From positions 18,073,746 to 18,137,745 of the forward strand of contig CM055113.1 of the NCBI GenBank assembly GCA_029204225.1: DNA of 64,000 nt. The letters run 5' to 3'. Position 1 is the stretch's first letter. Each line of letters opens with the position of its first letter. Source of the stretch: Diphasiastrum complanatum. Taxonomy: Eukaryota > Streptophyta > Lycopodiopsida > Lycopodiales > Lycopodiaceae. The notes beneath the pieces were generated by a model. It was not told the DNA's origin. It searched no databases and was given only the letters and a program-made list of their open reading frames with translations. Below, piece by piece: positions 3,129 through 45,854 of the stretch. Made by a program: the position numbers and the translations under genes.

Positions 3129-4550
3129 TTACAACCTCCTATGCCATAATTCCTCCATAGAGAGCTTGTTCACAAGAGCAACATTACAAGCATTCACATA
3201 CTCATTTGGATCTAGTTTATAGATGCCACCAAATCTAGATCCTAATGCAAGTATCTCATCATTCTTCTTGATAGTGCAAGTATCAACATTGAATTTTACA
3301 TCAAGGCCATTATCAAGCAATTGGCCAACACTAATAAGATTCTTGGTAAGCTTAGGTACATAAAGAACTCTAGAGAGAGAAAGAACTTTAGAGGATGCAA
3401 GCTTCAAGGGAATGTTCCCTATGCCTTCAATAGGACATTCAAAATCATTTGCAGTGTATATTGATTTCTTCACTCCATCATAAGGTGCAATAGAAGAGAA
3501 AGAGTCCTTGGAGCTACACATATGTGAAGAGGCTCCACTATCAATATACCATAGGTCGTCCTTCTTGAAAGGAGTAGATGAGAAACTAGAGACCATAAGA
3601 GATCCCTCTCCATCACTTGCAATAGTATCTTCCTTCTCATTGGTAATATTGGCTTGCTTGAGTTGATTCTTCTTTTTGAAGCAATTGGTGGCATAATGAC
3701 CTTTCTTGCCACAATAAAAGCACTTGATCTTCTTTTTCTTCTTGAGCTTGGATGATGAAGCATTAGAGGAATCATCTTCCTTCTCATCTTTGTCTTTGGA
3801 TTTGACTTTGTCCTTGCTTGAGGATTGTTGATGTTGGTTCTTGCTCCTCTCTTTGTGCTTATCCTTGGCAAAGAGAGCGTTGCCATCATTATGAGTGAGA
3901 GAAAGCTTGTCCATCCTCAAGAGCTTATACTCTTGTCTTGATTCTTCTGAAATTAGCACACTTTGGAGAGCCTCCAAACTTGGTAGCTCCTCCTTAATGG
4001 CATAGGATTGGACAAGATTATCAAATTCACTTCTCAAGCCATTGAGAATGACTTGAACTAGCTTATTTTGATTGATGGAATCACCAATACAAGCAAGCTC
4101 TCTATGAATATCTTTTACTCTCAAAACATAACTAGATGCACTCTCATCACTCTTTTGGCTACTTTGAAAGATTTGATTCCTAAGAGTGAGAAGCCTAGAG
4201 GTATTCTTAGCCTCATAGATAGTCTTGAGACAATCCCAAGCTTCTTTGGCTGTTGTACAAGTACCTATCTCCCTCAATATCTCATTAGAGACATTCATCT
4301 TAATGTAGTGGAGAGCCATCCTAGTTCTCTTTTTGTATTTTTGAACCTCTTGAAGAACTTGTGGTTCTTCTTCAAGGCCAAGAACTATGTCCATCACGTC
4401 TTGAAGGATCAAGATGGACTCCATCCTCATTTTCCAAATTGAATAATTTGAACTGGTCAATCTTTCACTTGGTTCCAACAAGGATGAACCCATTGAAGAC
4501 ATTTGAAGTGAAGAAAACTCAAATGATGAACAATAAATGTTGTTACACAC
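3129..4550 (-). CDS. Ty1/copia Gag-protease (element A)
   Basis: A 473-residue frame; the natural start is probably Met17 or Met20 (MSSMGSS), because the upstream residues look like leader. Gag (UBN2-type capsid) covers roughly 25-210, with SNYSIWKMRMESIL near its start. Next come a lysine-rich linker, a zinc knuckle CFYCGKKGHYATNC at about 275-290 with all CCHC ligands, and the aspartic protease signature DSGASSH at about 335-341. The frame ends with ELWHRRL, the start of the GAG-pre-integrase module. Gag packages element RNA; the protease cleaves the polyprotein. It is the best-preserved part of element A, which is otherwise frameshifted and truncated and so is unlikely to be autonomous. 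Confidence 0.9.
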   Translation of the reverse strand: MCNNIYCSSFEFSSLQMSSMGSSLLEPSERLTSSNYSIWKMRMESILILQDVMDIVLGLEEEPQVLQEVQKYKKRTRMALHYIKMNVSNEILREIGTCTTAKEAWDCLKTIYEAKNTSRLLTLRNQIFQSSQKSDESASSYVLRVKDIHRELACIGDSINQNKLVQVILNGLRSEFDNLVQSYAIKEELPSLEALQSVLISEESRQEYKLLRMDKLSLTHNDGNALFAKDKHKERSKNQHQQSSSKDKVKSKDKDEKEDDSSNASSSKLKKKKKIKCFYCGKKGHYATNCFKKKNQLKQANITNEKEDTIASDGEGSLMVSSFSSTPFKKDDLWYIDSGASSHMCSSKDSFSSIAPYDGVKKSIYTANDFECPIEGIGNIPLKLASSKVLSLSRVLYVPKLTKNLISVGQLLDNGLDVKFNVDTCTIKKNDEILALGSRFGGIYKLDPNEYVNACNVALVNKLSMEELWHRRL

Positions 4551-5242
4551 TTTTGATAGGATCCAATAATTGAGTACTATCTCCTCCTATGAAAGATCTT
4601 ACAACAATTTGTGAATTGATTCTCACTAGCTACACAAATCTCTCTAAAACAAGATCTATTTCACATCAAATGATGGAGTATAGGCAAAGTTAGGATCCAA
4701 CACTCTTAGCACGAGTGAAATACACTAAGAAACCAAATTTAACTCAAATACAATGATATTGCATGAAACAAAATGGCTAAGATCTCAAAACAGTGCCTAG
4801 ATCACATATAGATGAGATTGGCAAGCATACAACTGTGATTTTGGATCAACCAAGCAATCTCTTGACCAAACCAAATGTGTCCACCCAGGTCTAGGTGCCC
4901 TACCTAACCCTCTTCAAAAGCTTATAACTTTTGATTGGCTCAACCAAATGGAATGAAACTGATTGCAACAGTAGACAAAAATAGCTTCAAAACAAGCTAT
5001 CAAGCAAGATAAATGGATCAAACATGAGAGAGAACTTCCAAACTGAAATTGGATGTTCCTCACACGTGTCTGAGCACCTGATTTCGTACAGTACCAGGTC
5101 AGACCCAATCAATGTCCTTTTGATCTCTTTTGATCCAAGATTGAACAAGATAGCTAGGAAAATGGGCCTTGACAACTTCTAGCTCAAGATTGATGAAATT
5201 TTTTCACTTAGATGGATCAAAATGCATGGTAACCTTAGGTAG

Positions 5243-5994: not shown

Positions 5995-6340
5995 AAGTCA
6001 CATCCCTCACGTCATATAGTGAGCTCAAAATGTGCCATACTTCTTTCAAAGTTTGAGCTTCAGATATGTGGCCAATCAGAGTGTCTGATATATTGAGTAC
6101 GATAAGCGCAAAAGCTTTACCATCTCTTGATTTCACTTTGAGTCGGCTATCTCATCAAGCTTTAGTTTGATACCAGTGACAACATCCCACAACTTGTTGG
6201 CAATTAGCAAGGTCTTCATCTTAAATTTCCACAAATAGTAATTGGATTTATTAAGCTTGTCTACAATGAGACTGACTTTGTCTTGAGAATCCATTTGGAC
6301 GTTAGTCTATAGATAAATCGATGACTTAAGAATGATACCG
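5995..6340 (-). pseudogene. Copia gag fragment (element B)
   Basis: Minus-strand frames read KSRDGKAFALIVLNISDTLI and AQTLKEVWHILSSLYDVRDV, a UBN2-type copia Gag. The same protein, about 80 percent alike by eye, is encoded on the plus strand at 9.84-10.1 kb, so both come from one family. Upstream on the minus strand lies a MITE (6366-7164) and then a primer-like site at 7260. This suggests the MITE landed in the leader of a copia element that is now reduced to part of gag. Confidence 0.7.
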
Positions 6341-6365
6341 TGTGACGCTACAATTGGAAATCACA

Positions 6366-7164
6366 TTAGAGGAATTCTGAATCCAAAAAAGACCCTTTAA
6401 GGAATGTCACGTAGATTGACAAAGTTTATTAATATAAATTACCAAAATAAATTCATTTTCTACCCAAATTCTTTTTCATTTCTGCCCGCACTAGTTTCGA
6501 TGCTTAACCATTCTATGTACATTACCATTTGTAGTTAATTTAAAATAGCATAACTTTTTAACCGTAGCTTTGATTGAGACGAAAATTATACCGTTGAAAA
6601 GCGCTCGATAAGAGCTTTCCAACGGTATTGAGATGCCTACTTCCAAGCCATTATTCAAAAGTTATGGCCGGTCAAAGTTTCAGACCAAAAAAAAAAGGTC
6701 CACATATCTCTCTTGTGCGAGGATAGAGTACTCTATTCGCGCACAAGAGAGAGTACTCTATCTGCGCACAAGAGAGATATGTGGACTTTTTTTTTTTTTT
6801 GGTCTAAAACTTTGATCGGCCATAACTTTTGAGCGGTAGCTCGGAAGTAGGTCATGTAGGATACCATTGGAAAGCTCTCGTCAAGCGCTTTCTAACGGTA
6901 TAATTTTCGTCTCAATTGAAGCTACAGTTTTATGCTATTTTAAATGATAATTGCATATTATACTATGAATAACATGTCATGCTTGCGGGCTGCCCCCGAC
7001 GCCGAATTATAGCATTATTAAGAAAACTTTTTTTTCGATTCTAATGAGCTACGTTACGTAGATTTCAAATTTGAGTGTTTTGATTGGTCCATGTGTAAGC
7101 AAAATTTGAGAAAAATATATAATATCTTTACAAAGGGTCTTTTTTGGATTTAGAACTTTTCTAA
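6366..7164. mobile_element. Foldback MITE (family 1, copy 2) with 33-bp inverted ends
   Basis: The left end at 6366-6398 (TTAGAGGAATTCTGAATCC then AAAAAAGACCCTTT) matches the reverse complement of 7132-7164 with about five differences. There is no ORF of note. A long internal inverted repeat is listed separately. It lies within the leader of a copia gag fragment on the minus strand. Immediate flanks do not show a clear target duplication, so the superfamily is left open. Confidence 0.7.
6538..6945. repeat. Long imperfect inverted repeat inside the foldback MITE
   Basis: The left arm (6538-about 6735, starting ATTTAAAATAGCATAA) and the right arm (about 6760-6945) are complementary along nearly their whole length, including the GTCCACATATCTCTCTTGTG segment next to the centre. 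The centre holds two copies of GATAGAGTACTCTAT-like sequence. A transcript through it would fold into a hairpin with a stem of about 190 bp, a good substrate for Dicer-like enzymes if transcribed. Confidence 0.8.
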
Positions 7165-10547: not shown

Positions 10548-11081
10548 TGATATCGATTTGAAGCGTACTTTTCAGCTTTTTTACCTTCCGTTCGTACATC
10601 CGCGCCTGAAATCGATATTGCTTTTTAGGATATCGCTCTCAAGCGCAATTTTTCTCTCTAATTTTCTCTGGCCAATGTATCCGCGCTCAAAACTAATACT
10701 AGAAGCCTGTTTGATGCACTTGAGATCGATATTGCGAGGAAAAAAATGAAAATTTGCGACAATAAATAAAAATTTTGAGACATGTGGCATCATTTCAGTG
10801 GTCCACGTGGCCATTTGTACACATCATTATGACTATTTGATGAGGGGCACTTGCATTAATCAGAAACAACCACATGTCATTGTACACGTGACAACTGTTG
10901 CATCAATCATTATTTGTACGGAAGAGTATTTTCAACCAATCACACGACATGTGTTCTTAAAAAAAAATTTGATTTCTATGCTTGATATCGATAACAAGAA
11001 TACCTTTCAACCTTTTTGCTTTTCATTTGTACCTCTGCATCTGAAATCGATATTACTTTGTAAGATATTGCTCTCAAACAC
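10548..11081. repeat. Cluster of paired GATATCG motifs, left block
   Basis: Forward motifs at 10548 (TGATATCGATTTGAAGCG), 10627, 10983 and 11063 are each followed about 50 bp later by an inverted partner: 10600-10621 (CGCGCCTGAAATCGATATTG), about 10680, 11036-11055, and weakly about 11112. An extra partner stands at 10714-10735. The blocks 10520-10690 and 10960-11115 are also imperfect direct repeats of each other, about 430 bp apart. A short ORF starts at 11109, right after the second block. Confidence 0.7.
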
Positions 11082-11108: not shown

Positions 11109-11366
11109 ATGTATCCGTCGGGCCCTAGAACTGCCACTACTCTTTCTCCTTATGATAGATCTCTAATCACATTGCCTACTTATAATATAGATAATAATTC
11201 TTTTTTGACATTATCGGATATATCGGATCTTTTTGATTTCACAGAGGCTGAGACTCTTTGCATTTTGGGCAAAGAGCTTCATGAATTTTTAGATATAACT
11301 GATTTTGATGTTGATGATTTTCTCCCTGGTGGTGACGATGTAAATAAGGATGAAAAGATTGTTTGA
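11109..11366 (+). CDS. Short acidic ORF downstream of a motif cluster
   Basis: 85 codons, rich in Asp and Glu in the second half (ITDFDVDDFLPGGDDVNKDE). No family is recognised. The ATG lies within the last motif block. After the stop, the next frame reads MAVEEMRQKEDDLSSE, then a stop, then FLRFQSQFGFPKPIVYSP, so the ancestral protein was probably longer and has decayed. It resembles the 20885-21193 ORF in position (start just after a motif cluster) and loosely in an opening DN-x-FL-like pattern. A link is suspected, not shown. Confidence 0.35.
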   Translation: MYPSGPRTATTLSPYDRSLITLPTYNIDNNSFLTLSDISDLFDFTEAETLCILGKELHEFLDITDFDVDDFLPGGDDVNKDEKIV

Positions 11367-12027
11367 AAATGGCTGTGGAGGAAATGCGCCAAAAAGAAGA
11401 TGACCTTTCTTCTGAATAGGAGTTTCTTAGATTTCAAAGTCAGTTTGGTTTTCCAAAACCAATTGTCTATTCACCAACCTTATTGACATCAAAAGGTGGA
11501 CACAATATTGAGGGAGAGACAGTAATCAAGGAAGACAAAGCCGAATGCGTAATTTTTGTATCTTATTATCTACTAGTCATTAGGAGAAATTTGGTCTCAA
11601 AATGGGCCCATTAAGAAGTTTGACTTTAGAGAGAGATTACGTAGAGAGATAATAGAAACCGGTACCATTTGGTTGCCATTTTTTGAGTTTTCGGTAATGC
11701 CCACATTCTAACTACTTTTGGTAGAACTAGCTCTAACTCTAGGAATAATTAGTTAAACGTGTTTTGTAATAATAGACATACGTTTATCATATAATCTGGG
11801 GCTGTAAACGTTTACCAAAAATAATATTACAACATGGTACCTACGCCTTAAAGTAATGAATGGTCTATCATTAAAGCCTAATGATCACCGAATTTCATAC
11901 CTAGAGATATGATACGTTCGCGAAAACTCACGAGGCTCTGCTCTACATAAGCACAAACATGACATTAAAAAAAACTTTACGTTTGAATTTCACGCCCGAA
12001 TATCAGTTCAGCACACGCACAGATCAT
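11367..12027. other. No intact gene; decayed continuation and AT-rich spacer
   Basis: The first 230 bases carry the decayed continuation of the acidic ORF. The rest shows no coding signal. A partial motif, AATATCAGTTCAGCACACGC, occurs at about 12000, just outside the truncated end of the H3-like copy. Confidence 0.4.
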
Positions 12028-12180
12028 TCAGATATCCTTCATCCATGGCGGGTCACGTGGCATGCCCCTTGGCCTAGGAGGCGGTGGTGGAGGACGAGGT
12101 CGTGGTGGATTTCCTTGGTGGCCTCCTTGCATTGGGACACCTCCAAGATGAATCCGTGTTGTTTGCTTCGTGTGAGCCAT
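12028..12180 (-). pseudogene. Histone H3-like N-terminal tail, truncated at start of histone fold (copy 1)
   Basis: The frame starts at ATG 12178-12180 and gives 50 residues. It opens MAHTKQTTR, matching the H3 tail at T3-K4-Q5-T6 and R8, with Gly-Gly at H3 positions 12-13. A proline-rich linker with six consecutive prolines replaces the usual H3 tail. It ends with DPPWMKDI and a stop, where DPPWMKDI corresponds to the start of the alpha-N helix in copy 2 (DPP, then LKDIRK). Homology stops exactly at a GATATC, after which motif-type sequence follows. Copy 1 keeps an arginine and a tryptophan where copy 2 has stops, so the family once had an open frame. Confidence 0.65.
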
Positions 12181-12187
12181 GTGCATA

Positions 12188-13842
12188 CCCAATATCGGAT
12201 CAGCGCGCATGTAGAAAGTCAGTAGCTACAGAATGTAGGTCGGGCATGCCACATCGATATTAGACAGAAAAGTCGGAAACTAGTTGATGATAGCGGATGG
12301 GCGTGCGGGAGTCTAGAACATGAATATCACAATTGGGTCGGGCATGCTGACCGATATTGCATGTTGTAAAAAAAAAATCGTTAACTTTTGAAAGACAACT
12401 CGGATTGAGACGATTACAACGCCATTAGAAAGCTCTCCACAAGAGCTTTTTAGCGACATCCAACTTGATCTAGTTTCGAGCTATGGTTAAAGAGATATTC
12501 TCAGTCAAAGTTTTGGATGGTCAACAGTGTGAAAAAACTGGATCTTGAATGGATCCAGACTCCCAAAATACTTGGCTAAGATCTTTGCTCAACAAGCTAC
12601 AAAAGCTAGAAATGGCAAAGCATCCTAATGCAAACTTTGATACACATGAACTTGACAAAGCATTCAAGAAACAAAAGAAGTTAATAAAAGGTACTGGTGG
12701 CAGCCAAAAACAACAGCATACCAGCCCTCCAACAGCAGCCTACCACTTTTGGAAACCTCTTAAGATCATACACAAAAGCTTGAAGACAATACACATAGCA
12801 ATGCTCTCAATCAAGGAAGAAACTGTGACAATGATCTATTGATCTCTCTCAACGATACAATAAGTTTCTCCAACCTATTCTCCACGAATTTCAGCCTGAT
12901 ATATGTGAGAGAGATGACTCTCTCTCCTCTCTCTAGAACTTAGAACCCAATTTTAGGGCACCAGTAGCCTAAAATAGCCAATTTTGCCCTATATGTCCAA
13001 ATAATATGATTTTGGTGTCATTTTGAAGGTCTTGAAGTTTGGGACTTTCTCAATATGAAATATATACTAAAATAAAAGTATCTAGGTCTCTTTCACATTT
13101 GTGAAAGATTAGATCCAAAACTATGTACAAAAATCACCAATTTAGGCCTCAAACTAGCTAGGAAATGTTGACAATTTTCACAAACAGTCAACGGTCAACC
13201 TAATATCGGATTAGCGCGTGGTTGACCAGTTTGATCCGGTCAAATCCTAAGGGCATGCGCCAATCCAATATTAGAGGTTAAATTTTGGGTTTTTTTTTTT
13301 GTGAAAGAGCTCCAAAACTTTGACTGCCTATAACTTTTGAATCGTAGCTCGGTATTAGGTCATTTTGGTGCCGTTGCAAAGCTCTCGTCGAGCTCTTTCA
13401 CAAAAAGAAATTAAAATCCTAATATTGGATCGGCGTGTGCCCTTAGGATTTGAACTGGTCAAACTGGTCAACCGTAGGCTGACATGATATTAGGTTGATC
13501 GTTGACTGTTGATCACCCAAAACTTTGACTGAGAATATCTCTTTAACCGTAGCTCGAAACTGGGTCATGTTGGATGTGGTTGAAAAGCTCTCGTCGATGG
13601 CTTTCTAATGGCACTGTAATCGTCTCAATCCCAGATGTCTTTCAAAAGTTATCATTTTTTTTACAACATGCAATATTGATTCAACGCGCCTGACCCAATC
13701 GTGATACTCTTGTTCCAAACTCCCGTGCGCCCATCCGCTATTGCCTAGTTTTCGACTTTTTTGTCTGATATTGGTTCGATGCACCTGACCTACATTCTGC
13801 AGCTGCTGACTTTCTACACATGCGTTGATCCGATATTGCGTC
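12188..13842. repeat. Long inverted repeat, arms about 345 bp, with nested inverted repeat
   Basis: The left arm 12188-12532 and the right arm 13500-13842 are complementary along most of their length. Examples are TAGAAAGTCAG at 12212 and its inverse CTGACTTTCTA near 13807, and TGCATGTTGTAAAAAAAA at 12359 and its inverse near 13661. Between them lies a second inverted pair, 13187-13311 with 13391-13503. The 967-bp centre contains a 97-codon frame (12549-12842) with no recognised features. The arms carry the paired 20-bp motifs, so the inversion duplicated the array. Confidence 0.8.
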
Positions 13843-14096
13843 TACAAATGGCCTCTTATACTAAATGAAATATTTTAACTTTCAGAAGAAATATTCTAGA
13901 TTCTCCCTTTGGATGGGAAAAGTATGAAGACTCAAATTCGATCCAAAAACTTAACACAACGAACAATGGCCTATACTCACAGGCGCGTTGATCCGCTATC
14001 GACTGCCGAGTTTCATTCTTGGGTTATCGGTTCAGCGTGCGCCTCCTATACTGCCTCGCTGCTAATTTGTACACATGCGCGCTGATCCAATACTAG
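12191..14096. repeat. Cluster of paired ATATCGGATCAACGCGC-type motifs, H3-like copy 1 side
   Basis: Forward motifs and inverted partners: 12191-12210 with 12241-12262; 12291-12305 with 12339-12360; 13201-13221 with 13251-13273; 13421-13440 with a weak partner at about 13476; 13671-13690 with 13722-13744; 13766-13784 with 13819-13840; 14022-14043 with 14074-14096. A lone partner is at 13982-14001. Start-to-start spacing inside a pair stays near 50 bp although the loop sequences differ. The cluster begins 11 bp upstream of the H3-like start codon. Confidence 0.75.
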
Positions 14097-14600
14097 GACA
14101 TCGCATGGACCGCACCAAACAAACTGCTCCTAGCCCACATCAATCGTTCCTCTTGGTCTCCGATTATTTGTTGCCATTAGTCCAAAATATCTCTATGGAA
14201 GTTGAGTACGAATGAGAACAAAGAGAATGAGAGATATACCTAACAATGACAAGAAGTTCTTAAACTACGGGGATTAGTTAACTACAGTTTATGACTATTG
14301 ACTACAAATCAACCTCAAGTGTAGAAATATGGGCAGGAAAAGAGTATTTGGGCAGTAAATATGGTCCAATCACAATCGTTTGTATTGCTTGGTGGGATTT
14401 TTGAAAATCACCAAAATTTGGCCGGGAAAGGAAAAGCAATTTCCATCCGTCAACCACTGTTACAGTTCATCACAGATGGATACTATTGATTGGGCCACTT
14501 AAGCGTTGAAAGCGTGCGAAGTAAAAAAATAGCATCTTGACAAAGGGCCCATTTTGAGTTCTAATATCCCCTAATGAGATCCGTTATGTCAGATTTTATA
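14097..14600. other. Intergenic; partial MITE family-1 end near 14.54-14.58 kb
   Basis: No gene seen. The stretch 14535-14577 (CTTGACAAAGGGCCCATTTT, then GAGTTCTAATATCCCCTAAT) resembles the right terminal repeat of the MITEs at 352-718 and 6366-7164. A left end was not found, so it may be a fragment. Confidence 0.4.
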
Positions 14601-15312: not shown

Positions 15313-15606
15313 CTAGCTAGATGATAACATAGCTTTACTAACTAAGCCAAGGGCTGATCTAAGCTTAAAAAAAGCATTCTTTTGAAGAGGCTTTCTCAAT
15401 ATATTAGCTATGCATTCTTCACTTGAAACATGCTCCAATGAGACCTCCTTAGCTTGGACCTTTTCTTTTACAAAGTGGTGAGCAATCTCTATGTGTTTGC
15501 TCCTTGCATGGTAGATTGGATTGGATGCTAGGTGTTGGGGTGAGATGTTGTCATTGTAGATGAGTGGAATGATACCTAATCTGATCACCTTGAGCTCCTC
15601 AAACAA
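15313..15606 (-). pseudogene. Copia RNase H C-terminal part (element D)
   Basis: A 97-residue frame with the copia RNase H tail: LASNPIYHARSKHIEIAHHF, KEVSLEHVSSEECIANIL, FKLRSALGLV. It continues the 15625-16551 frame after a break between EAEYKALTTTTK and the next conserved stretch. The stop is followed directly by the polypurine tract and LTR, as expected for the end of Pol. Confidence 0.85.
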
Positions 15607-15624
15607 CCTCTTGATCCATAGAAT

Positions 15625-16551
15625 CTACTTGGTTGTGGTTGTTAGAGCCTTGTACTCGGCCTCGGTTGATGAAAGAGAAATTGTTTCTTGTTTTTTTGAT
15701 AGCCAAGAAATCACACCTTCTCCAATGAAAGTTGCAAAGGCACTTGTTGACTTTCTATCCTTCTTGTCCCCTGCAAAATCTGAATCACTAAAAGCATGCA
15801 AGTTAATGGATTCACCTCTATAAAGGATCCCAAAATCTAGTGTGCCCGAGATGTATCTCAATATTCTTTTGGCACATTTCCAATGGATAACTAATGGATC
15901 TTGCATATGTTGACTAAGCTTGCAAACACTATAGCAAAGATCAGGTCTTGTTATGGTTATCCACATTAAGGAGCCAATAAGTTGCCTATAAAGAGTGATG
16001 TCCTTGAAGGATATTTCATCCTCTTTATTGGTCACTTTTACATCATGCTCCATAGGAGTCTCTACATGCTTGATTCCATGCATGTTAAATGTATCGAGTA
16101 ATGAAATGGCATACTTAGATTGACAAATGAAGACATAATCTAAAGATCTAAGTACTTCCATACCCAAAATGAAGTGCAAAAGCCCGAGATCTACCATCTT
16201 GGACTCTTTGGATAGATCTAGCTTAGTTTTCTCAGCACCTTCTAAATCATCTCCACTAAGTATGATATCATCAACATAAAGTAATAAAAGTACAATGCCT
16301 TTTGCACTAAATATTATGTACAAAGTGGGATCATACTCACTAGGAGTAGATCCAATGGAGATAAGAAAAGTATTGAGCCTTGTGTTCCAAGTTCTAGAAG
16401 CTTGTTTCAAACCATACAAGCTCCTCTTGAGATGACACACCTTGTCTTCCATACCTTGCTTGATGAAGCCCTCGGGCTGCTCCATAAATATATCCTCTTC
16501 CAAATGACCATTTAAGAAAGCATTTGACACATCCTTTTGAAAAATAACCAA
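15625..16551 (-). pseudogene. Copia reverse transcriptase and RNase H (element D)
   Basis: A 308-residue frame covering most of the polymerase: DVSNAFLNGHLEEDIFMEQP near residue 7, SLYGLKQASRTW, and the catalytic LLYVDDIILSG with both aspartates of YVDD intact. It runs into RNase H (SDSDFAGDKKDRKSTSAFA, SLSSTEAEYKAL). The upstream polymerase fingers are in another frame (16512-17081) that overlaps by 40 bases, showing a frameshift in the fingers. This is a copia polymerase that kept its active site but not a continuous reading frame. Confidence 0.88.
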
Positions 16552-17081
16552 TCAAAGTGAGAAGCAAGAGCAATGATTAGTTTTATGGTGACCATCTTTG
16601 CCACGGGTGCAAAGGTCTCATCATAATCTATGCCCTTTGATTGAGCATACCCCTTGGCTACAAGCCTTGCCTTGTGCTTATAAAAACTCCCATTTTGATT
16701 CAACTTGAGCTTAAAAACCCACTTACATCCAATTACATTCCTATCCAAAGGTAGATCAACAAGCATCCAAGTATCATGCTCCATCAATGCATTGTACTCA
16801 TCACACATAGCTTGAAACCACTCCTTTGATTCTAAAGCTTCACTAACATTTGAAGGCTCTTCAAAAGATGTGATGAGCTCATAAGAAGAAGTACTTCTCT
16901 CGGCTTGCTTACCCTTGTCCTTGTATGTGAGCCTTAATGGCTCCATCCTTGACCTTGTGGATCTTCTTGGTGTGCTTGGTGTTCTTGGTTCTAGCTCCTC
17001 CTCATGATCAAGCTCCTCCTTGATCTCGGGTACCTCTCTTCCAATAGAGTGGTTAGATGAATCATCTTCAAGCTTATGCAT
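16512..17081 (-). pseudogene. Copia Pol linker and reverse transcriptase fingers (element D)
   Basis: A 189-residue frame. Its first 100 residues are the acidic, proline-serine linker between integrase and polymerase. The rest is the start of reverse transcriptase: DTWMLVDLPLDRNVIGCKW, KARLVAKGYAQSKGIDYDET, FAPVAKMVTIKLIIALA. It ends by frameshift into unrelated residues where the 15625-16551 frame takes over. Confidence 0.85.
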
Positions 17082-17147
17082 TCTAGTCTCATAAAAAATG
17101 ATATCTCTAGAAATGACAACCTTTTGAGAAGAGGGAATGTAGATTTT

Positions 17148-17608
17148 CTAACCTTTGCTTGCATTGCCATAACCTACCATGATCCCCTTCATGGATGATG
17201 GATCCTCCTTGGTTCTTTTGTCCGAAGGGACATGTACATAGCAAATGCATCCAAACACTTTCAAGCTTTTGAAATTAGGCTTTTCTCCATACAATAACTC
17301 ATAAGATGTTTTACCATTTATAGAGCTACATGGAACTCTATTACATAAGAAGTTAGCACATGTGAGAGCTTCTCCCCAAAAAGACTTAGGTAGGCACGCA
17401 TCTAACCTTAGAGCTTTAGAACACTCACATAGTGTCCTATTTCTCCTCTCGGCCACCCCATTTTGTTGAGGATTGTAGGGGCAAGATAACTCCTCCTTGA
17501 TCACAAAAGACTTTAAATTCATTGGAGATATATTCTCCTCCATTATCACTTCTAAAGAACTTGATCTTGTGATTATGATGCTTTTCAATATCCAAAAAAT
17601 ATTGTTTG
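17148..17608 (-). pseudogene. Copia integrase fragment cut by the motif element (element D)
   Basis: Minus-strand frames read IEKHHNHKIKFFRSDNGGEY, then (after a shift at about 17.5 kb) CPYNPQQNGVAERRNRTLCE, FWGEALTCANFLCNRVPCSS and KGIMVGYG, which is the integrase catalytic core and its C-terminal extension. Homology ends abruptly at about 17608 in the middle of a conserved IFKQYF segment, exactly where an AATATCGGATCAACGCGC motif begins. The front half of this element, with gag and the 5' LTR, is not on the other side of the accessory block. Confidence 0.85.
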
Positions 17609-17681
17609 AATATCGGATCAACGCGCACAATATGAAAAGAAACCAAGCAATAACTACAAGGGCATGTCAAATCGATATCGA
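17608..17681. repeat. Isolated motif pair at the copia/accessory-block junction
   Basis: Forward motif GAATATCGGATCAACGCGCAC at 17608-17628 and inverted partner GGCATGTCAAATCGATATCG at 17661-17681, with the same 50-bp spacing as the other pairs. It sits exactly at the break in the copia integrase, so it may mark the end of the inserted block. Confidence 0.7.
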
Positions 17682-17976: not shown

Positions 17977-18237
17977 CTACTTTGTTATGTATGGGAGCAC
18001 AATAATTGGAGTCCCCAGTCTGACGTATTGGGGCATATCATCGTGCACACTTTTGAAATCAACAAAATAAAAAACAACCATGAATTGAAGTGGAAACAAT
18101 GCTACATCTATAAGCAGCGGGGTCTGGAAAAACTCCATCCAGTACTGAATTGCTCCCCCTCCTACATTGTCCCCTAGCATTTTATCCCTACTTTCTAACT
18201 CACCTGTATCTAATTTAGAAAGGGGAAGACCCAGCAT
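17977..18237 (-). CDS. Unidentified ORF downstream of the Ser/Pro-rich ORF
   Basis: 86 residues, opening MLGLPLSKLDTGELESRDKM, with a hydrophobic, membrane-like stretch (LLIDVALFPLQFMVVFYFVD) near the middle. It lies on the same strand and 70 bp beyond the Ser/Pro-rich ORF, so it could be the decayed end of the same gene. No family recognised. Confidence 0.25.
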   Translation of the reverse strand: MLGLPLSKLDTGELESRDKMLGDNVGGGAIQYWMEFFQTPLLIDVALFPLQFMVVFYFVDFKSVHDDMPQYVRLGTPIIVLPYITK

Positions 18238-18307
18238 TGATTTTCGGCATCTTAAAATTGTATAGAGGACCTAAAGCTTTAAGATATGTGTTTAACAATT
18301 GGTCATA

Positions 18308-18805
18308 CTATACATATTGAGGAGTATTTACAAAGGCAAGTGCAAGGGGTGAAGGAAGTAATACAGATAAACCACTAAAAGAATTGTCATTCAAAATTGA
18401 TTCTACCTTTACATTTACAAAATCATCTAAATCATTTCCTAGAATAGGAGGTGGGGAACTAATATTTGTGAGGGTAGGAGGAGACTGAGATTTTGAAGGA
18501 GGAGGAGATTTATTAGGAGAGGAAGATTTAGCAGGAGAAGATGGAGATTGAGTTCTAGGAGGAGAAGAAAGAGACTTAGGAGTCACATCTCTGTTCTCCA
18601 AGGAGATCCGATCGATTTCATGAACTCCTGACCTAACAAAAAACATTGTCGAAGCAGTTAGAATCTCATGCAGAGGAGAGCTTTGAAAAATCTCTCGCTT
18701 TATTAGGAGGGTCATGAGACCTCCTCTTCTTTGAAACACTCCTACTCTGTACTCAAAAAACAAGCCAAGATGGTTGAGATTGCTTTCGTTTTCTTTTCTC
18801 TGCAT
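18308..18805 (-). pseudogene. Ser/Pro-rich ORF following the H3-like fold
   Basis: A 165-residue frame. Its informative part is a low-complexity Ser/Pro/Lys region (SPPRTQSPSSPAKSSSPNKS and PPPSKSQSPP) with many S/T-P dipeptides, then a short acidic end (GNDLDDFVNVKVES). The first 50 residues overlap, in another frame, the basic extension described with the H3-like pseudogene. The actual protein may therefore have run fold, basic stretch, then Ser/Pro region, with frameshifts since. Such S/T-P stretches are often phosphorylated, but no function can be read from the sequence. Confidence 0.4.
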
Positions 18806-18861
18806 CTTGTTTTGGAGGAGAGGAATGAGCTGGTCTAAAGTACTCTACAAATTTGTCATAT

Positions 18862-19260
18862 GTGTCCCATAGCCTGAACCACAATGTTGAAATACTTGGG
18901 CATGATGGTCACCCTCCTGGCATGGACAGTTGCAACAACACTATTTGAAAAAAATTTCACTTGGAAATCCTCATATGCAGTGTGCAACGTCTCAATTGTT
19001 GTTACAGTCCATCTCACATCTATAGTTAGATTTCTTGTAACCTGTTTGATGGATCTCTGTATGTGAGCTTTCGGAATCAGAAGATTATTGATCTTTTATA
19101 CCTTTCGAATATCCTTCAGTCAGGGAGGGTCTCTTCATCTGCCCCTTGGCCTAGGAGGAGGTGGTGGTGGATGAGGCGATGGTTGTGGATTTCCCTGACC
19201 CCCTCCTGTGATTGGGATTCCACCAGGGTGGATTCATGTTGTTTGTTTAGTTTGCGCCAT
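18862..19260 (-). pseudogene. Histone H3-like protein, full tail and histone fold with four in-frame stops (copy 2)
   Basis: ATG is at 19258-19260; 133 codons follow in one frame. The tail reads MAQTKQTT then a stop in place of Arg8, Gly-Gly at 13-14, and a proline-rich linker. The fold aligns gap-free with canonical H3 from residue 48: LKDIRK (alpha-N), LLIPK and IQR (alpha 1), DVRWT (loop 1 and start of alpha 2), and VHARRVTIMPK at 112-122. H113, R116, V117, T118, M120 and K122 hold their H3 numbers. Stops are at codons 9, 42, 47 and 55. Loop 1 has H3 length, unlike most CENH3, although Trp replaces Phe84. A +1 shift after codon 133 opens a basic extension (18860-18666) with EKRKRKQ and SKKRRSHDPP, then the Ser/Pro ORF. 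H3 forms nucleosomes with H4; this copy is probably dead, but its family may not be. Confidence 0.72.
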
Positions 19261-19648: not shown

Positions 19649-20220
19649 AATAGCGAATCGATGCGCATGCATTGCATCTGTAAACTAGAGAGGCTATTCT
19701 CACGTGCTGAACCGATATTAGATGATATATGAATGATCAGAACTTGACTCGATATATTCTTCTTAGCTTTGGACAATATGAAGAGACTACCGAATCAAGC
19801 TTTGATCATGCATAATGTCGTCCAATAATTTTGACAATTTTCAAAAATCTTTTTTTTCCTGCAATAGCGATTTGACGCACGTAGTCCAAGGAAAGAATCA
19901 CTTTCTTCTCCCAGGCGCGCTGATCCGATATCTGAGACGCACTGAAAATATATTGGAACACAATATGAACCATCAAAGCTTGCTTTGGCAGATTTTTTTA
20001 AGCTTTGGATGTATGAGAAATCTCCCGAAACAAGCTTTGATGATTCATAATGCATTCCAATAGCGAATCAACACGCGTAGTCCAAGTTGAAAAATCTTTT
20101 TTTTGGGACGGGCGCGCTGATCCGATATCCGATTCGCCATATCAGAGTATTTAATCAACGTGCGCCTATTTGATCTGTTCCTCTGAAGCACTTGTCCTCT
20201 CACGTGGAATCGATATCGGC
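19649..20220. repeat. Motif-pair cluster upstream of H3-like copy 2, in 197-bp tandem units
   Basis: Pairs: 19649-19670 with 19701-19721; 19861-19882 with 19914-19934; 20058-20080 with 20109-20131; 20146-20166 with 20199-20220. Forward arms read near AATAGCGAATCAACRCGC and partners near GGCGCGCTGATCCGATATC. The second and third pairs sit in repeats 197 bp apart that also share AAGCTTTGATGATTCATAAT-type sequence between pairs. Spacing within each pair is about 50 bp from start to start. Confidence 0.8.
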
Positions 20221-20378
20221 TCTTTCAAAATGCTCCGCCTTATGAAAATGTTCTGAATGGACAATCTCAAAAGAAAAAATTTCGTCTTTACGGTGCTTAA
20301 ATAGGGTGAGAGACTGTAATAATTGCCCTCGTACACGTTTTTCAATGATGTCTATTTAATGTTGTTTATTATTTGTTT

Positions 20379-20517
20379 AATGATGATTCAAGGAGGCTAG
20401 TGATAGACTATTTAATGTATTCCAGCGTAGGTACAAATTTTAGGGTCAGGGCTAATGATGATTTGGAGAATCTAGTGATAGACTATTTAATGTATTCCGG
20501 CGTAGGTACAAATTTGT
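20379..20517. repeat. Tandem duplication, 75-bp period
   Basis: Two copies of a unit containing CTAGTGATAGACTATTTAAT and CGTAGGTACAAATTT, starting about 20397 and 20472, nearly identical. It lies between two groups of motif pairs. Confidence 0.85.
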
Positions 20518-20685
20518 CTCACTCTGATTGGTGGATAAATATAGGCTATGCTCCTCAATTCATTATTTGACAAATGTATGACTGTGATTCACAAGAATAG
20601 GCTATAAATATGGGCACCACTTTCCATATTTCGATTCCGTGATCTTTTATTCTGAACTCCCTCGTCATTTTGTTTTTTTTTTCTC

Positions 20686-20878
20686 GCGATATCGAATCAA
20701 CGCGCGCCTTCACATACAGTGCACAGTCAGATTCATTCAGGCACGTTGAAGCGATATCAGCCTCTTCTAACGTGTGCTCGCGAAAAATTTCACTCTCATC
20801 AAAATGATATCTAATCAACGCGCGCACTGTTGTTCAGTCCTCACCGAAATCATTCAGTCGCGTTGAACCGATATCAGG
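20686..20878. repeat. Two motif pairs immediately upstream of an ORF
   Basis: Pairs 20686-20710 with 20739-20761, and 20804-20828 with 20856-20878, 118 bp apart. Forward arms read GATATCGAATCAACGCGCGC and GATATCTAATCAACGCGCGC; partners read GCACGTTGAAGCGATATCAG and GCGTTGAACCGATATCAGG. These are the best-conserved copies in the window. The ATG of the next ORF lies 7 bp after the last arm. Confidence 0.85.
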
Positions 20879-20884
20879 TTCAAT

Positions 20885-21193
20885 ATGGCTAGCTCCTCTA
20901 TGTCCTCAGATAACAAACTTCTGGATTTTTTGAATGCCAGTGACATTCCATCTGAGAAATTAGAGTATTTTTCTAGTATTTTTTTTGCTCCCTTCGATAT
21001 CGATAAGCTAGTTTATGAGAATCGTTATAATTTAATTTCTCTTCTTGATAATTTTTCTCAGATTATTAGTACTCCTATTCAGGATATAGATAGTTTTTGT
21101 TTCATTCATTTTCAGGACCTTGTGCATTCCCAACCATCCTCTAAGCATAAACACAATTCCAATATCACGCAACCTTTGACAATATCCAAGTAA
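20885..21193 (+). CDS. Short ORF starting just downstream of the motif pairs
   Basis: 102 residues, opening MASSSMSSDNKLLDFLNASD. It is mildly acidic with several aromatic residues (YFSSIFFAPFDIDKLVYENR) and has a basic, serine-rich end. No family recognised. It is oriented away from the H3-like gene, so the motif array between 19.65 and 20.88 kb would be a shared upstream region for two divergent genes. The ORF at 11109 is placed the same way relative to the other array. Confidence 0.4.
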   Translation: MASSSMSSDNKLLDFLNASDIPSEKLEYFSSIFFAPFDIDKLVYENRYNLISLLDNFSQIISTPIQDIDSFCFIHFQDLVHSQPSSKHKHNSNITQPLTISK

Positions 21194-22305
21194 TTCGCTA
21201 TTTCCTTCACATACAAATATGAGAAGATGAGTTATGGACTTAAAATCTGGACACAAATTGGTAGCTGGATCATTAGGATAAATTGATCCATCCACCCACA
21301 AATCTATATTCATATGATTATTCATTCTCAATTTATCTAACTATTGCAGCAACATTCTCTACAACTTTCAAATTTTTTTTAATAATTGGAGTGCATTCCA
21401 TAGGAAGAGCAACATGCAAATGGAACATTGCCATTGTTAAATGCTACAATCCGCGTAAATGCTTCAAACTACAATAAATCAACATGAATAGATCTAGCAT
21501 ACCTTACTTTTGTAATGTTTATGTCGCATTGAAAAATCGTCCAGCCCCATATTTCACTGTAAGTACAGTGATTTCAAAAGTTCTGCTACTCCCGCTTCAG
21601 TTTTTGCATTGAGCACACCAAGATTTTCCATGTTTTTAACCAGGATGTCATGTTGACATCATGGTTTAATAAAAAAATCATAAAAACCAAGGGATAAAAA
21701 TTGTGATGAAGGGAGCGACTATCTAGACTTAGGCGACTGCCGAGAGGGCTCCGCGGCCGGCGATAGGCGCTACCCTACATGAAACGAACCACTGGGGTGA
21801 CGAACGACCTTAGGGTGGTGCAACATTAAAGCCTGTGTGCATTCTGTCCTGAGGCTGTTTTCTTTGTGTCGATGAGAGGCAATAGTTTGGGGACCATGTT
21901 ACATTGAGAAAATCCCTCTTCTGTAGAGAGTCTAATTTTGTGAAGCCTCACACTGTAATAGGGCTGCATGTGCTACTTTTGCACATGGATATAAGATAAC
22001 TAAATAAGATTCTATTTTCTAAAGCACTAGAGTGGATGCACTATCCAAAACAATCTCTTTTGAAACTGCAATGCAAAGCAATCTATTGGGGCTTGCTTTA
22101 GCCAATAGATTCTTTCCTGATCCTCTCGTTCGACTACCGTGTGCCCTCTCGGTTGTAGTATTAATGCTGATAGAATTTGGACTTGTTAGATGATGTTGTA
22201 ATTGAAATCTTGTTTAAACAACAAGGATAACACGAGTCCTCTTTGTGGTTAGCCAGCCCTGTCTCTAAAGCTATCATGCCCCCTTTTCCATTCCTATCTA
22301 TATTA
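21194..22305. other. Intergenic, no gene recognised
   Basis: Mostly AT-rich, with a short GC-richer block at 21710-21830 (around GCGGCCGGCGATAGGCGC) that has no ORF or RNA fold I can identify. Confidence 0.4.
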
Positions 22306-24041: not shown

Positions 24042-25236
24042 TCCGGGCCTTGGCATTTTGTGAGTAAATTTTTTGCAAGTTTTTCTCTACCCATGATTCA
24101 ACGAAAGGTAGCACATGGTGTGCTACTGTTTTTTTATGCCATTACATGATTTTCTATAAATAAGAATTGTGGGTTTGGTACATAGTTGAGAATCTTTATT
24201 AACCATCAAACTTTAAGTAGGTCCATCAAAATATACTTCTTCTAGGAGGACCAAGTCCGGGGCTAGGGCCTGGTGATTAGCTAGGTCCAATCTCATGGCC
24301 AGGTAAAGCCCAGGAGGGCTATGAATGCAATAAACTACAAGAAGGCTCCTTGTGGTTCCGTGCAGTCCTGCCACCACTTGCAAGGAGCCTTCTTGCGGTG
24401 GGCTAGAGCGCAAGGAGCCTTCTTGCGGTCCCTTGCGGTGGGTTGGACCGTAAGGAGCACGGACCGCAAGGAGCCTGCTTGCGATCCAGCCCACCACAAG
24501 GTTGCAAGAAGGCTCCTTGTGGTCCCTCAGGGTTTAGGGTGTAAGGTTTAGGGTACCCAACCCAACGGACCATAAGGAGCCCACCCCAAGGGACCACAAG
24601 GAGCCTTCTTGCGGTCCAGACCACCGTAAGGGACAGCAAGAAGGCTCTTTGTGGTCCCTTGCGGTGGCTCAAGGGACCGCAACGGGCCACAAGGAGCCTC
24701 CTTGTGGTCCCTTGCGGTGGGCTGGCCGCAAGAAGGCCCCATTGTGGTCTGTTGGGCCACCACAAGGGACCACAAGGAGGCTCATTGCGGTCCCTGGCGG
24801 TGCGCTGGACCGCAAGGGACCACAAGGAGCCCAAGTGTAAAAATAAAAATTTGATTGAATCACTTGGCACACCGGTGATTCATAAAAATAAATAAATAAA
24901 TAAAACTTGTTTTGCCCCTGGCAGCCAACCACCATAGCAGGCTACCAGGGCAAAAAATAATAATAATAATTTTGAATCACTTGGCACGCCGGCGTGCAAG
25001 TGATTCAGTTTTTTTTTTGTTAATGTAGCACAAGGCTAAACATGTTTTTTAACTTCAATAAAATTTTATTTTGGGATTTCATTATGGGATTTCTAACTAT
25101 GTGCCAAACCACAATTCTTATTAATAAACATTCAAGTAGTAGCATAAAAAAGATAGCACACCACGTGCTATCTTTGTATTGACTCATGGCAAGAAAGAAA
25201 CTCGCAAAAAATTTACTTGCAAAATGCCAAGCCCCG
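24042..25236. mobile_element. Element with about 145-bp terminal inverted repeats enclosing a GC-rich minisatellite
   Basis: The left arm (24042-about 24190) and the right arm (about 25090-25236) are complementary throughout, for example CTTGGCATTTTG with CAAAATGCCAAG, TAGCACATGGTGTGCTA with TAGCACACCACGTGCTA, and AATAAGAATTGTGG with CCACAATTCTTATT. Long TIRs of this size are typical of Mutator-like elements, but no 9-bp duplication or transposase is visible. Inside, from left to right, are the minisatellite, a hairpin (24911-24955, TTTTGCCCCTGGCAGCC with GGCTACCAGGGCAAAA), and a near-perfect palindrome (24974-25006). Confidence 0.75.
24330..24835. repeat. GC-rich degenerate minisatellite
   Basis: Repeated short words CAAGGAGCCTTCTTGCGGTC, CCTTGCGGTGGGCTGGACCG and GGACCACAAGGAGCC, in both orientations. 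The block is far richer in G+C than its surroundings. Open frames in all six phases here are by-products of the repeat. A short TTTAGGG-containing stretch at 24533-24556 is isolated and not a telomere array. Confidence 0.85.
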
Positions 25237-27548: not shown

Positions 27549-28988
27549 ATGGCTACAAGTGGAGGCTTTATGTTGGAGAGCAATGATAGGCTTACCTCAA
27601 TCAACTATTCTACTTGGAAGGTGAGGGTGGAGTCCTTATTGGAGATGAATGAGTTGATGGAAATTGTTGCAGGTGTGGAGGAGAGGCATCAAGCACCTCA
27701 AGATCAAGTGACGTATGACAAGAGAGCAAATAAAGCTCTACACATGATTAAGATGAATGTTACCAATGAACTTCTCAAGGAAATTGGTAAGTGCACATCA
27801 TCTTTGGAGGCTTGGGAAGCTTTGAAGAAGCTTTATGAATCAAAGTCTACATCAAGAGTGCTTACTCTTAGGAGGCAAATCTTTCAAAGTTTTCAAAAGA
27901 AGGAAGAGAGTACTCATGCTTTTTTTTTGAGGGTTAAAGCATTCAATGATGAGTTAGCATGTATTGATGAAAGCATTAAGGAGGTAGAACTTGTTCAAGT
28001 TATACTTAATGGCTTGTTGGATGATCATGCTAATCTTGTTCAAAGTTTTGCTATTCAAAAGACTTTGCCAAGTATTGTGGATTTGCAAGAGATCTTGGTG
28101 AATGAGGAGTATAGGATTCAATCAAGAGGAGGTGGATCTACATCAACATTTCATTTTGAAGAGGAGGCTATGTTCATCAAAGGCAAGTTCAAGGGCAAAG
28201 GAAAGTGGTCTAAAGGGCAAGATCAAGGTGAGACTTCTTCTTTTGGCAAAAAGAAAGATAAGTCTAAGTTAAAATGCTTTTATTGTGGAATCAAAGGGAA
28301 TTTTGCAAATGAATGCTTGAAGAAGCAAAGAGATGAAGGTAGCAAGCAAATCAACTTTACTACTAATGATGAGGATCTAGGTGGTTGTGATTATCTTTTG
28401 ATGTGTTCTTCAAGTCCAATATCAAGTGAAGGTGACAAAGATTCATGGTGGATTGATAGTGGAGCTAGTTCACACAAGGAGTTCTTTACTTCTTTGGTCA
28501 CTTATGATGGAGCCAAGAAAACAATTCACATGGCCAATGGTGGTGAGTGTGTGATTGAAGGTATTGGTTCAATTCCTATTTGTCTCTCTACTAATAGGAA
28601 AGCAAGACTTGATGGTGTTCTTTACATTCCTTCACTTTCAAAGAATTTGCTAAGTGTTGGTCAAATGATAGAGAAAGGATACATGGTAAAGTTTGGTGGT
28701 GACGCTTGTTTCATTACAAAGGAAGAAATCTTGGTTGCTAGGGGCAATAGACAAGGTAGACTTTTCAAGCTTGATGCTTTCGTTATGGCTAACAAAAAAG
28801 ATGGAATGAAAAAGGAGATTGGTCTCAACTTTCCAAAGTTCTCTTTTAGCATCAATAAGATTGGTGGATCTTATAAAAAGTCTAACAAGCTTCCTTATGC
28901 TAGATCTAGGTCAAGATCTAATATTCTTCTTGGAGATGTTCATCTTTGTGCTAACTTGGCTAGTCTTGAGGATAATGATGGTGTTTAA
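27549..28988 (+). CDS. Ty1/copia Gag-protease (element F), gag-only element
   Basis: 479 residues, opening MATSGGFMLESNDRLTSINY. UBN2-type Gag spans about 10-200 (LTLRRQIFQSFQKKEE, LVQVILNGLLDDHANLVQSF). The zinc knuckle reads CFYCGIKGNFANEC, with Asn in place of the ligand His. The protease motif WWIDSGASSH is intact, and the protease continues to about residue 400 (LDGVLYIPSLSKNLLSVGQM). The last 80 residues are not copia-like and end DNDGV before a stop, so GAG-pre-integrase and integrase are missing. The leader from 26961 to 27548 has no ORF. The frame is long and clean, which suggests selection or recent origin even though the element lacks its own integrase. Confidence 0.85.
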   Translation: MATSGGFMLESNDRLTSINYSTWKVRVESLLEMNELMEIVAGVEERHQAPQDQVTYDKRANKALHMIKMNVTNELLKEIGKCTSSLEAWEALKKLYESKSTSRVLTLRRQIFQSFQKKEESTHAFFLRVKAFNDELACIDESIKEVELVQVILNGLLDDHANLVQSFAIQKTLPSIVDLQEILVNEEYRIQSRGGGSTSTFHFEEEAMFIKGKFKGKGKWSKGQDQGETSSFGKKKDKSKLKCFYCGIKGNFANECLKKQRDEGSKQINFTTNDEDLGGCDYLLMCSSSPISSEGDKDSWWIDSGASSHKEFFTSLVTYDGAKKTIHMANGGECVIEGIGSIPICLSTNRKARLDGVLYIPSLSKNLLSVGQMIEKGYMVKFGGDACFITKEEILVARGNRQGRLFKLDAFVMANKKDGMKKEIGLNFPKFSFSINKIGGSYKKSNKLPYARSRSRSNILLGDVHLCANLASLEDNDGV

Positions 28989-44732: not shown

Positions 44733-45854
44733 ATGGCAAAAGGGCAAGAACAGAAGGTATGTAAACTACATAAAGCACTTTATGGCCTTAAGCAAGCGCC
44801 ACGCGCATGGTATGGACGCATTGACAGTTACTTTCTTTCTCATGGATTTCTAAGAACAAATTCAGATCCAAATCTTTATGTTCTTATAAATGATGACAGA
44901 ATTGCCTTGATTGTACTTTACGTTGATGATATCATCATCACGGGCAATGATGAGAACCTCACTTGTTCTATCAAAGTCAACTTATGCAAGCAGTTTGAGA
45001 TGACAGATTTAGACCTTATGCACTATTGCTTGGGTGTCGAAGTATGGCAAACTAGAAGTGATATCAGGTTATATCAAAACAAGTATGTAGGCAAGATATT
45101 GGAGAGATTTCACATGACAGAGTGCAAACCTTCCATCACCCCTTGCGAAGCTGGTAAGAAATTATCTCGTATTGATAATTGTGCACATGTTGATGCTATA
45201 CTATTTCGTCAGCTAGTTGGGAGTTTGATATATCTTACGACTACTCGTCCTAATATCTGCTATGCTGTAAGTTTGATTAGCCAATTTATGTCATCACCCA
45301 CTATGGACCATTGGAAAGCTGCAAAAAGGATTTTGAGGTATGTGAAAGGTACACCTAACCTTGGTCTAATCTACAAAAGACAAAGTGTTTTACCTAAGTT
45401 GCAAGGTTATGTTGACGCTGATTGGACAGGAAGTATAGATGATAAAAAGTCAACAACAGGTTATGCCTTCAATTTTGGTAGCGGTTGTGTTTCATGGTCT
45501 AGCAAGAAGCAAGATACTATTTCTCTTTTTTCCACAGAAGCCGAATATAAAGCATTGAGTGCTGTTTGGCTACGTAAGTCATTATGTGAGATTGGCATGA
45601 AGCAGGTGAATCCCACTGTTATTTTCTGTGATAGTCAAAGTGGAATACAATTGGCTAAAAATCCTATCTTTCACGCAAGGACAAAACATATTGAAGTAAA
45701 ATATCACTTTGTGCGTGAAAAGTTACAATCTGAAGATATAAGTATTGTACATTGTTCTACGTTATTACAAGTTGCTGATATATTTACGAAAGCTTTAAGT
45801 AAAGAAAAGTTTGAGACTTTTAGAACCAAACTTGGCTTAGATATGGTTATGTAA
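44733..45854 (+). CDS. Copia reverse transcriptase and RNase H (element I)
   Basis: A 373-residue frame with the polymerase palm and RNase H nearly complete: LHKALYGLKQAPRAWYGRID near residue 11, catalytic LIVLYVDDIIITGND near 65-80 with YVDD intact, FEMTDLDLMHYCLGVEVW, ATTRPNICYA-type thumb, and RNase H with GYVDADWTGSIDDKKSTTGY, SLFSTEAEYKALS, ARTKHIEVKYHF and the C-terminal FTKALSKEKFETFRTKLGL. It ends 95 bp before the polypurine tract (GAGGGGGAGA, 45941-45950). It reads as one frame from GFMAKGQE, with the fusion frame upstream separated by a single stop. The element lacks protease and integrase and so is non-autonomous. Confidence 0.92.
   Translation: MAKGQEQKVCKLHKALYGLKQAPRAWYGRIDSYFLSHGFLRTNSDPNLYVLINDDRIALIVLYVDDIIITGNDENLTCSIKVNLCKQFEMTDLDLMHYCLGVEVWQTRSDIRLYQNKYVGKILERFHMTECKPSITPCEAGKKLSRIDNCAHVDAILFRQLVGSLIYLTTTRPNICYAVSLISQFMSSPTMDHWKAAKRILRYVKGTPNLGLIYKRQSVLPKLQGYVDADWTGSIDDKKSTTGYAFNFGSGCVSWSSKKQDTISLFSTEAEYKALSAVWLRKSLCEIGMKQVNPTVIFCDSQSGIQLAKNPIFHARTKHIEVKYHFVREKLQSEDISIVHCSTLLQVADIFTKALSKEKFETFRTKLGLDMVM

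Follow-up and report, generated by a model that had tools for sequence, protein, structure and literature searches.

A histone H3-like gene in Diphasiastrum complanatum is probably a dead copy from a multi-gene DNA transposon family

A DNA stretch of 64,000 nucleotides from Diphasiastrum complanatum, called the window in the following, contains an interrupted gene for a histone H3-like protein on its minus strand. The best explanation, to which we assign a probability of roughly 0.77, is that it is a dead copy of an H3-like gene that resides in a multi-gene DNA transposon family and encodes a variant that would hinder silencing. Judged from the sequences, the gene is a member of a large, old mobile-element family with many copies in the same genome. 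That the carrier is a transposon is very likely, and that the H3-like gene is a resident gene of the element is likely to a slightly lesser degree. The anti-silencing role of the predicted H3 variant is put forward as a tentative proposal.

Results

The window gene and its second copy

The histone genes of the window comprise the following features:

18862..19260, minus strand: H3-like tail, proline linker and histone-fold core of a histone gene of the gamma family, with four internal stops (copy 2; Pfam, PDB, alignment and genome search)
17980..18861, minus strand: C-terminal extension of this gene with a basic patch, a proline/serine-rich stretch and a C-terminal block with the end VLPYITK, frameshifted and with stops (reading frames; blastn with locus L045)
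12027..12180, minus strand: copy 1, a second H3-like gene of the gamma family, present with tail and linker and cut off after KDI (tblastn and alignment; L045:2969-3315 corresponds to window 12374-12027, 64.8%)
14105..14143, plus strand: a possible third H3-tail-like start, MDRTKQTAPSPHQ, 12 nt outside an inverted unit (weak; from the sequence only)

A first-pass annotation had proposed a frame of 133 codons on the minus strand at 19260-18862, and this frame is present as described, with stops at residues 9, 42, 47 and 55. It matched the Pfam Histone profile, a check that had been suggested, with 50.9 bits (E=2.4e-13; cut-off 26.4), and in the PDB it matched H3 chains with E-values down to 8.6e-13. 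The alignment of the core with H3 is indeed gapless; it covers residues 49-123 (counting Met), i.e., 75 residues that are 36% identical, and tblastn within the window gave E=1.6e-12. Across the entire frame the identity to H3 is 29%, close to the earlier estimate of about 30 percent. The coordinates of the frame had been given correctly, but the gene does not end at residue 133. The homology to a full-length relative continues to about position 17980 and past it, and the 133-codon frame is only the first third of a gene that is about three times longer. Copy 1 retains Arg at the first and Trp at the third stop site, as the annotation had stated, and its further claim that every stop is one transition away from a sense codon was not borne out at all four sites in a comparison with two relatives.

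Neutral decay was simulated starting from H3 and running to the observed identity, and 0.05 to 0.15 indels per substitution were assumed. About 125 substitutions in 75 codons were required, and an indel-free frame was rare (p <=0.002). Because a gapless frame is so improbable under simulated neutral decay, the window frame is beyond chance and was not freely decaying. On average 3.3 stops per 75 codons arose in the simulation, and at most one was present in 13.9% of the runs. The observed core has one, and the stop count alone gives no decision for or against neutral decay of the core. A fold model of the frame, read through and predicted from the single sequence, had a pLDDT of 42 and was set aside. 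Protein database searches with the histone frame, the downstream ORF and a fragment of the neighboring gene S yielded no matches at E 0.001.

Genome copies and three histone families

The source assembly (1,744,706,496 bases or 1.74 Gb, 5,176 contigs), in which the window occupies positions 18073746-18137745 of one contig, was searched for further copies. The Pfam Histone profile gave 153 matches from the best 150 of 6,325 loose candidates. Thirteen scored 163.7-165 bits and were canonical H3 where inspected, and all others scored 109.5 bits or less. The latter include at least two host H3.3 exons and otherwise consist of dispersed H3-like frames, many of them long and stop-free. With the gamma protein of the window as query, all 150 scored candidates matched (best 150 of 7,134), namely the window copy and 149 other places. 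These are 72-81% identical, linker included, and nearly all span residues 1-129. Shared flanking repeats and genes further support the claim of an H3-like protein on mobile or repeat DNA. The annotation had also suggested a search for intact copies with this linker, and 49 of the 150 matches (best 150 of 7,134) contain no stop within the match. The beta protein matched in 122 of 122 scored candidates (best 122 of 9,916) with 84-100% identity, the query included, and 24 matches were stop-free. The gamma and beta copy numbers are lower bounds, because only the best candidates were scored; on the other side, equal-scoring matches on unplaced contigs may in some cases represent a locus that was assembled twice.

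The H3-like proteins fall into at least three deeply split families. The alpha protein (e.g., in L009) has the sequence MSEE followed by an MARTKQTAR tail, a very long proline-rich stretch and a C-terminal histone fold. The beta protein (L025) has about 327 residues and is composed of a short tail, the fold, and a basic and acidic extension. The gamma protein (window, L045, L046) contains the tail, the linker PPPPPPRPRG, the fold, and a basic proline/serine-rich extension. The gamma gene of L045 is open over 404 residues, counted from its ATG, and ends with VLPYIKK, corresponding to the end VLPYITK of the window gene at about 17980; by blastn, L045:3155-4781 corresponds to window 19264-17588 (80.6%). 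In L046 the gamma frame is shortened after 364 codons of open frame. The fold was recognized by Pfam in alpha (E=6.8e-29) and beta (E=5e-28), and the two histones are about 49% identical. In a tree alpha and beta each form a tight group, and the union of the three families is not firm (49/67); the tree, which includes one misframed translation (the second L027 copy), was used only for the tightness of alpha and beta. L027 contains two different H3-like copies (4018-4410 and 6171-6914) with S-like fragments, as well as a start MARTKQTAREP, possibly a fourth family. Two loci considered as CENH3 candidates, L033 and L034, were rejected, as both are ordinary host H3.3.

The tails were compared at 26 N-termini (9 alpha, 11 beta, 2 gamma, 1 from L027 and 3 from the window), of which two or three may be locus duplicates (L010/L012, L037/L038); the count covers loci with a pattern match and excludes L015, L017, L018, L019 and L040-L042. 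Lys9 is present in none of the 26 and is replaced by D, G, N, E, I or S; it is present in both host H3.3 loci of the same search (n=2). Lys4 is present in all 26, a retention that is partly built in, because the N-termini were chosen by their KQT pattern. The canonical contexts of K14 and K27 are replaced, as judged by eye. The predicted proteins of the window and of the alpha and beta families are diverged H3 variants, not canonical H3.

The carrier element

Additional genes, designated T, S and c3, are found beside the H3-like genes. One part of T is present in 11 of 20 fetched loci, one part of S in 15 and c3 also in 15. The window contains remnants of T and S and an adjoining retroelement:

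20885..21202, plus strand: 5' portion of S, in divergent orientation to the histone gene (window 19950-21202 corresponds to L046:3159-4347, 74.7%; in L046, S_beta has matches at 4197-4487 and 4612-4842)
11163..11330, plus strand: 3' fragment of gene S beside copy 1 (tblastn with S_beta residues 219-274, 37.5%, E=2.1e-8)
21170..21328, minus strand: N-terminal fragment of T, transposase-like (tblastn, 43.4% over 53 residues, E=1.1e-10)
15313..17600, minus strand: Copia fragment adjoining the element at the left (ORFs; reverse transcriptase match at 15625-16551)

The alpha and beta elements are multi-gene DNA transposons with inverted terminal repeats, a point that the first-pass annotation had missed together with the length of the gene and the deep split of the histone families. 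Sharp shared ends were found at 6 of 12 alpha loci and, with another end, at 6 of 7 beta loci; both ends start with CATTAG and have unrelated flanks. The distance between the inverted ends is 8,681 and 9,305 bp in two beta elements and 6,404 bp in one alpha element, in which one end reads CAATAG. Nested in the beta element of L014 is a copy of 1,090 bp that has alpha ends (L014:784-1873). The empty site of this nested insertion was found: the joined flanks are gapless across the junction in comparison with L017, L020 and L021. A fourth relative, L025 (537-758), lacks 17 nt starting exactly at the insertion point, which is perhaps an excision scar. At L013 the joined flanks restore a Copia reading frame. 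Seven Copia matches extend across the join; in six of them no base is gained or lost there, and in the seventh 2 nt are missing close by. For the two full beta insertions no empty site was found among the fetched loci. A target site duplication was seen neither at the four elements inspected by eye nor at the empty site, and thus the 8-bp duplication of hAT elements is lacking.

Gamma terminal repeats were sought in L045, L046, L047 and the window and were not found. Therefore, gamma was placed in the same type of transposon by its shared genes and units, and we infer that its elements end in the same way as those of alpha and beta. Much of the locus L047 matches the window Copia.

The N-terminal part of T is repeated in the genome (105 matches from the best 103 of 7,602 candidates). 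In 11 of 12 neighbor pairs, picked by eye from match tables, T lies 3.7-3.9 kb from the H3-like gene on the opposite strand; in the twelfth it lies on the same strand at 4.6 kb. The T proteins of alpha and beta are 42-48% identical in the longer pairs and 34-43% identical in comparisons with L025. The c3 proteins of the two families are 32% identical (E=2e-33), and those of S are homologous only in the C-terminal part (31%, E=1.5e-11). The scanned pieces of T (two), S and c3 had no Pfam match at E <=0.01, and in particular those of T had no hAT or PHIS-type match. A fold model of the S fragment, predicted from the single sequence, had a pLDDT of 48 and was likewise set aside. In its position, its spread and its resemblance T fits a transposase, and we regard it as the putative transposase of the element. 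S and the histone gene point away from each other in beta, gamma (L046) and the window and toward each other in alpha, as if genes had been turned round as cassettes.

Elsewhere in the window, a minus-strand ORF (47531-48385) matched a MYND finger and, just below the cut-off, Sel1; it is perhaps a host gene. A G+C-rich, minisatellite-like region (24403-24900) is open in several frames. Fragments of Copia and Gypsy elements, part of the plant repeat background, were detected by Pfam at 3129-4550, 15625-16551, 27549-28988, 44733-45854, 55603-56343 and 61975-62586.

Selection on the histone genes

The annotation had named a dN/dS below 1 among copies as a check, and this was found for the two window copies. 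In 47 codons, with five codon columns containing a stop or gap left out, 17.5 synonymous differences at 35.5 sites and 15.5 non-synonymous differences at 105.5 sites yield a dN/dS of 0.20. The differences are distributed 9/8/22 over the codon positions, and there is one three-base indel. This low ratio indicates that the tail and the linker still belonged to a working protein after the copies had parted. Comparison of the window with L045 and L046 gave 0.24 and 0.32 for the tail and 0.54 and 0.46 for the fold, so that the diverged gamma copies range from 0.20 to 0.54. Higher values were obtained for L045 versus L046 (0.92) and for five close beta copies (0.54-1.37), and the recent beta and gamma copies look near-neutral. 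The pooled pN/pS in the fold is 0.41 for alpha (10 close copies) and 0.21 for beta (7 copies, two subgroups). The pattern, which is pairwise and pooled and not branch-wise, fits constraint in a moving lineage and drift in dead copies.

A decay of the methylation type was considered and rejected. The beta stops are mostly TAG (162 of 192), and the query ORF contains 11 CAG and 1 CAA, but only 2 of 7 stops placed in 9 loci correspond to CAG in the relative (3 distinct sites). By eye the TAG excess is alike in gamma and absent in T, and it is probably due to codon make-up and shared descent.

The same data bear on the alternative that the carrier is a transposon and the histone gene is transduplicated cargo of no benefit, comparable to that of Pack-MULEs and to the inactivated H3 copies of fungi. 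The near-neutral evolution of recent beta and gamma copies would fit such cargo, and hAT elements of fungi are known to have captured H3 (PMC6710886, PMC3538342). Nevertheless, we regard this alternative as unlikely. H3-like genes were retained in three diverged families, of which alpha and beta have them beside the same T and c3, and the fold is recognizable (E=5e-28) in spite of an alpha/beta identity of about 49%. The ratios between the diverged gamma copies and the pooled values of alpha and beta given above also argue against cargo and for a resident gene.

Inverted-repeat units around the histone genes

The window contains inverted-repeat units that are found in and around the element:

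19650..20874, no strand: six units of 68-70 bp with ATATCGGATCARCGCGC-like arms, arm starts 50-52 nt apart, between the histone gene and S (motif and weight-matrix searches)
12192..14093, no strand: seven further units between copy 1 and the start at 14105, the right arm by eye only in two (motif and weight-matrix searches)
17610..17678, no strand: a unit downstream of the histone gene, at the place of the downstream doublet of gamma loci (weight matrix; gamma loci)
10550..10618, no strand: a unit near the S 3' fragment (weight matrix)

The motif ATATCGGATCAGCGCGCC occurs nine times in the window with at most three mismatches, compared with 0.02 expected occurrences, and all nine are at 12.2-20.9 kb. 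A weight matrix of the unit found 32 matches, 31 of them at 10.5-20.9 kb, and four random sequences gave 0 or 1. Most matches are convergent pairs with starts 50-52 nt apart. In L045 and L046 together there are ten arm pairs, all with a spacing of 51 nt, and two unpaired arms. The 68-70-bp units bracket the histone gene in both fetched gamma loci (L045, L046), with doublets on either side, and in L046 a doublet also precedes S. Weaker arms are present in all seven beta loci, in three of them (L016, L020, L021) as pairs with a 53-nt spacing, and also in L027; none was found in the 12 alpha loci. Related hairpin-like repeats at window 6530-6929, 12362-12528 and 13183-13660 lie inside as well as outside the element.

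Of 30 unit ends in the window, 7 have an ATG at a distance of 11-13 nt on the outside, compared with 2.0 expected (p=0.003), and in 5 the distance is exactly 12 nt; the pattern was spotted before the test, and the ends lack independence. Copy 2 lacks the 5' doublet that is present in L045 and L046, and thus its likely promoter is also gone. The homology between copy 1 and copy 2 begins exactly at the ATG and is confined to the tail and the linker. Copy 1 stops at a GATATC that resembles that of a unit arm, so that recombination may also take place at the inverted units.

Remnants of an endogenous DNA virus with palindromic promoters might likewise show several genes, divergent promoters, repeated inverted units and ATGs near unit ends (7 of 30, 2.0 expected, with ends that are not independent). 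We consider this origin very improbable, as the elements are short (8.7-9.3 kb), have inverted ends and a clean empty site, and occupy dispersed places. The ORF pieces scanned, which are part of the element, contain no viral Pfam domain, capsid or polymerase. In IMG/VR the unit pattern had no match, and in the protein search none of 14 pattern-matching stretches was confirmed.

Discussion

The multi-gene DNA transposon accounts best for the window gene. Decayed copies of host H3 or CENH3 that arose by retrotransposition or tandem duplication, outside any element, are hardly credible. The frames lack the introns of host H3.3, yet host H3.1-type genes are unbroken too, and although the window core scores 57.4 bits with Arabidopsis CENH3 and 48.6 bits with H3, the copies have the linker, the C-terminal extension, the neighboring genes and the ends in common, were constrained after duplication (dN/dS 0.20 for copies 1 and 2) and lack the CENH3 loop-1 insertion. 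The common order of the genes and the empty site also argue against such copies. A CENH3 pseudogene in particular was rejected, as the score leans slightly to CENH3 but loop 1 and the copy number do not fit. With CENH3 the window copy shares a diverged tail and the NLLIP, RW and HARRVT residues; in contrast to CENH3, loop 1 is not longer, very many copies are dispersed, and there is an additional C-terminal domain.

Spy elements are not known to carry a histone. Like the elements described here, they have no target site duplication (PMC12730594, PMC4482050), and here the scanned T pieces had no Pfam transposase match. The closest precedents, also missed by the first-pass annotation, are fungal: an H3-like (H3L) hAT transposon is described in Pyrenophora tritici-repentis and an H3-carrying hAT in Pseudocercospora fijiensis, the latter with 8-bp target duplications, and the fungal H3 copies are reported to be inactivated (PMC3538342, PMC6710886). 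These elements have a hAT transposase, whereas the present ones are from a plant, have no hAT Pfam match in the T pieces and no target duplication. Three diverged families, long added domains and a low dN/dS between diverged copies further distinguish them. VANDAL elements with VANC are likewise plant DNA transposons with a protein that counteracts silencing and with non-coding motifs (PMC10398659, PMC5735166, PMC12730594). However, for the present elements this role is a proposal, VANDAL elements are of the MuDR type and VANC is not a histone. Transposons with TET/JBP dioxygenases or SET methyltransferases also carry a chromatin- or DNA-modification gene, which encodes a mark-changing enzyme and not a histone (PMC12730594). 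Among the titles and abstract starts listed from open-licence PMC papers, there was no plant transposon with its own H3.

From these features a mechanism can be outlined. T would move the element as its putative transposase. The predicted variant may enter or mimic nucleosomes on the element, or it may bind enzymes of the H3 tail. Because the variant has neither Lys9 nor the canonical Lys27 site, silencing based on H3K9 would be hindered; alternatively, it may be a decoy that occupies readers and writers of the H3 tail. We regard the paired inverted units as putative regulatory sites that would drive the divergent H3-like and S genes and may recruit element proteins. A far-reaching version of this outline, which we regard as rather doubtful, is that the elements represent a new superfamily of plant DNA transposons without target duplication, with a core gene set that includes an H3 variant with a Lys4 tail but without Lys9. 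The element chromatin, built or mimicked with this variant, could then not be marked by the host for H3K9-directed silencing, and the paired inverted units would position or recruit the variant and let gene modules swap or invert.

Taken together, transposons with chromatin-editing enzymes and fungal hAT elements with H3 are already known. A transposon lineage that retains a diverged histone through deep splits would represent another tactic, namely to supply the substrate and not to edit the marks. It would make testable the long-standing question of whether selfish DNA can evade silencing with its own nucleosomes. In addition, a single plant with three H3 variants, each in many copies and extended by further domains, would provide a natural experiment on where the H3 tail and fold tolerate change.
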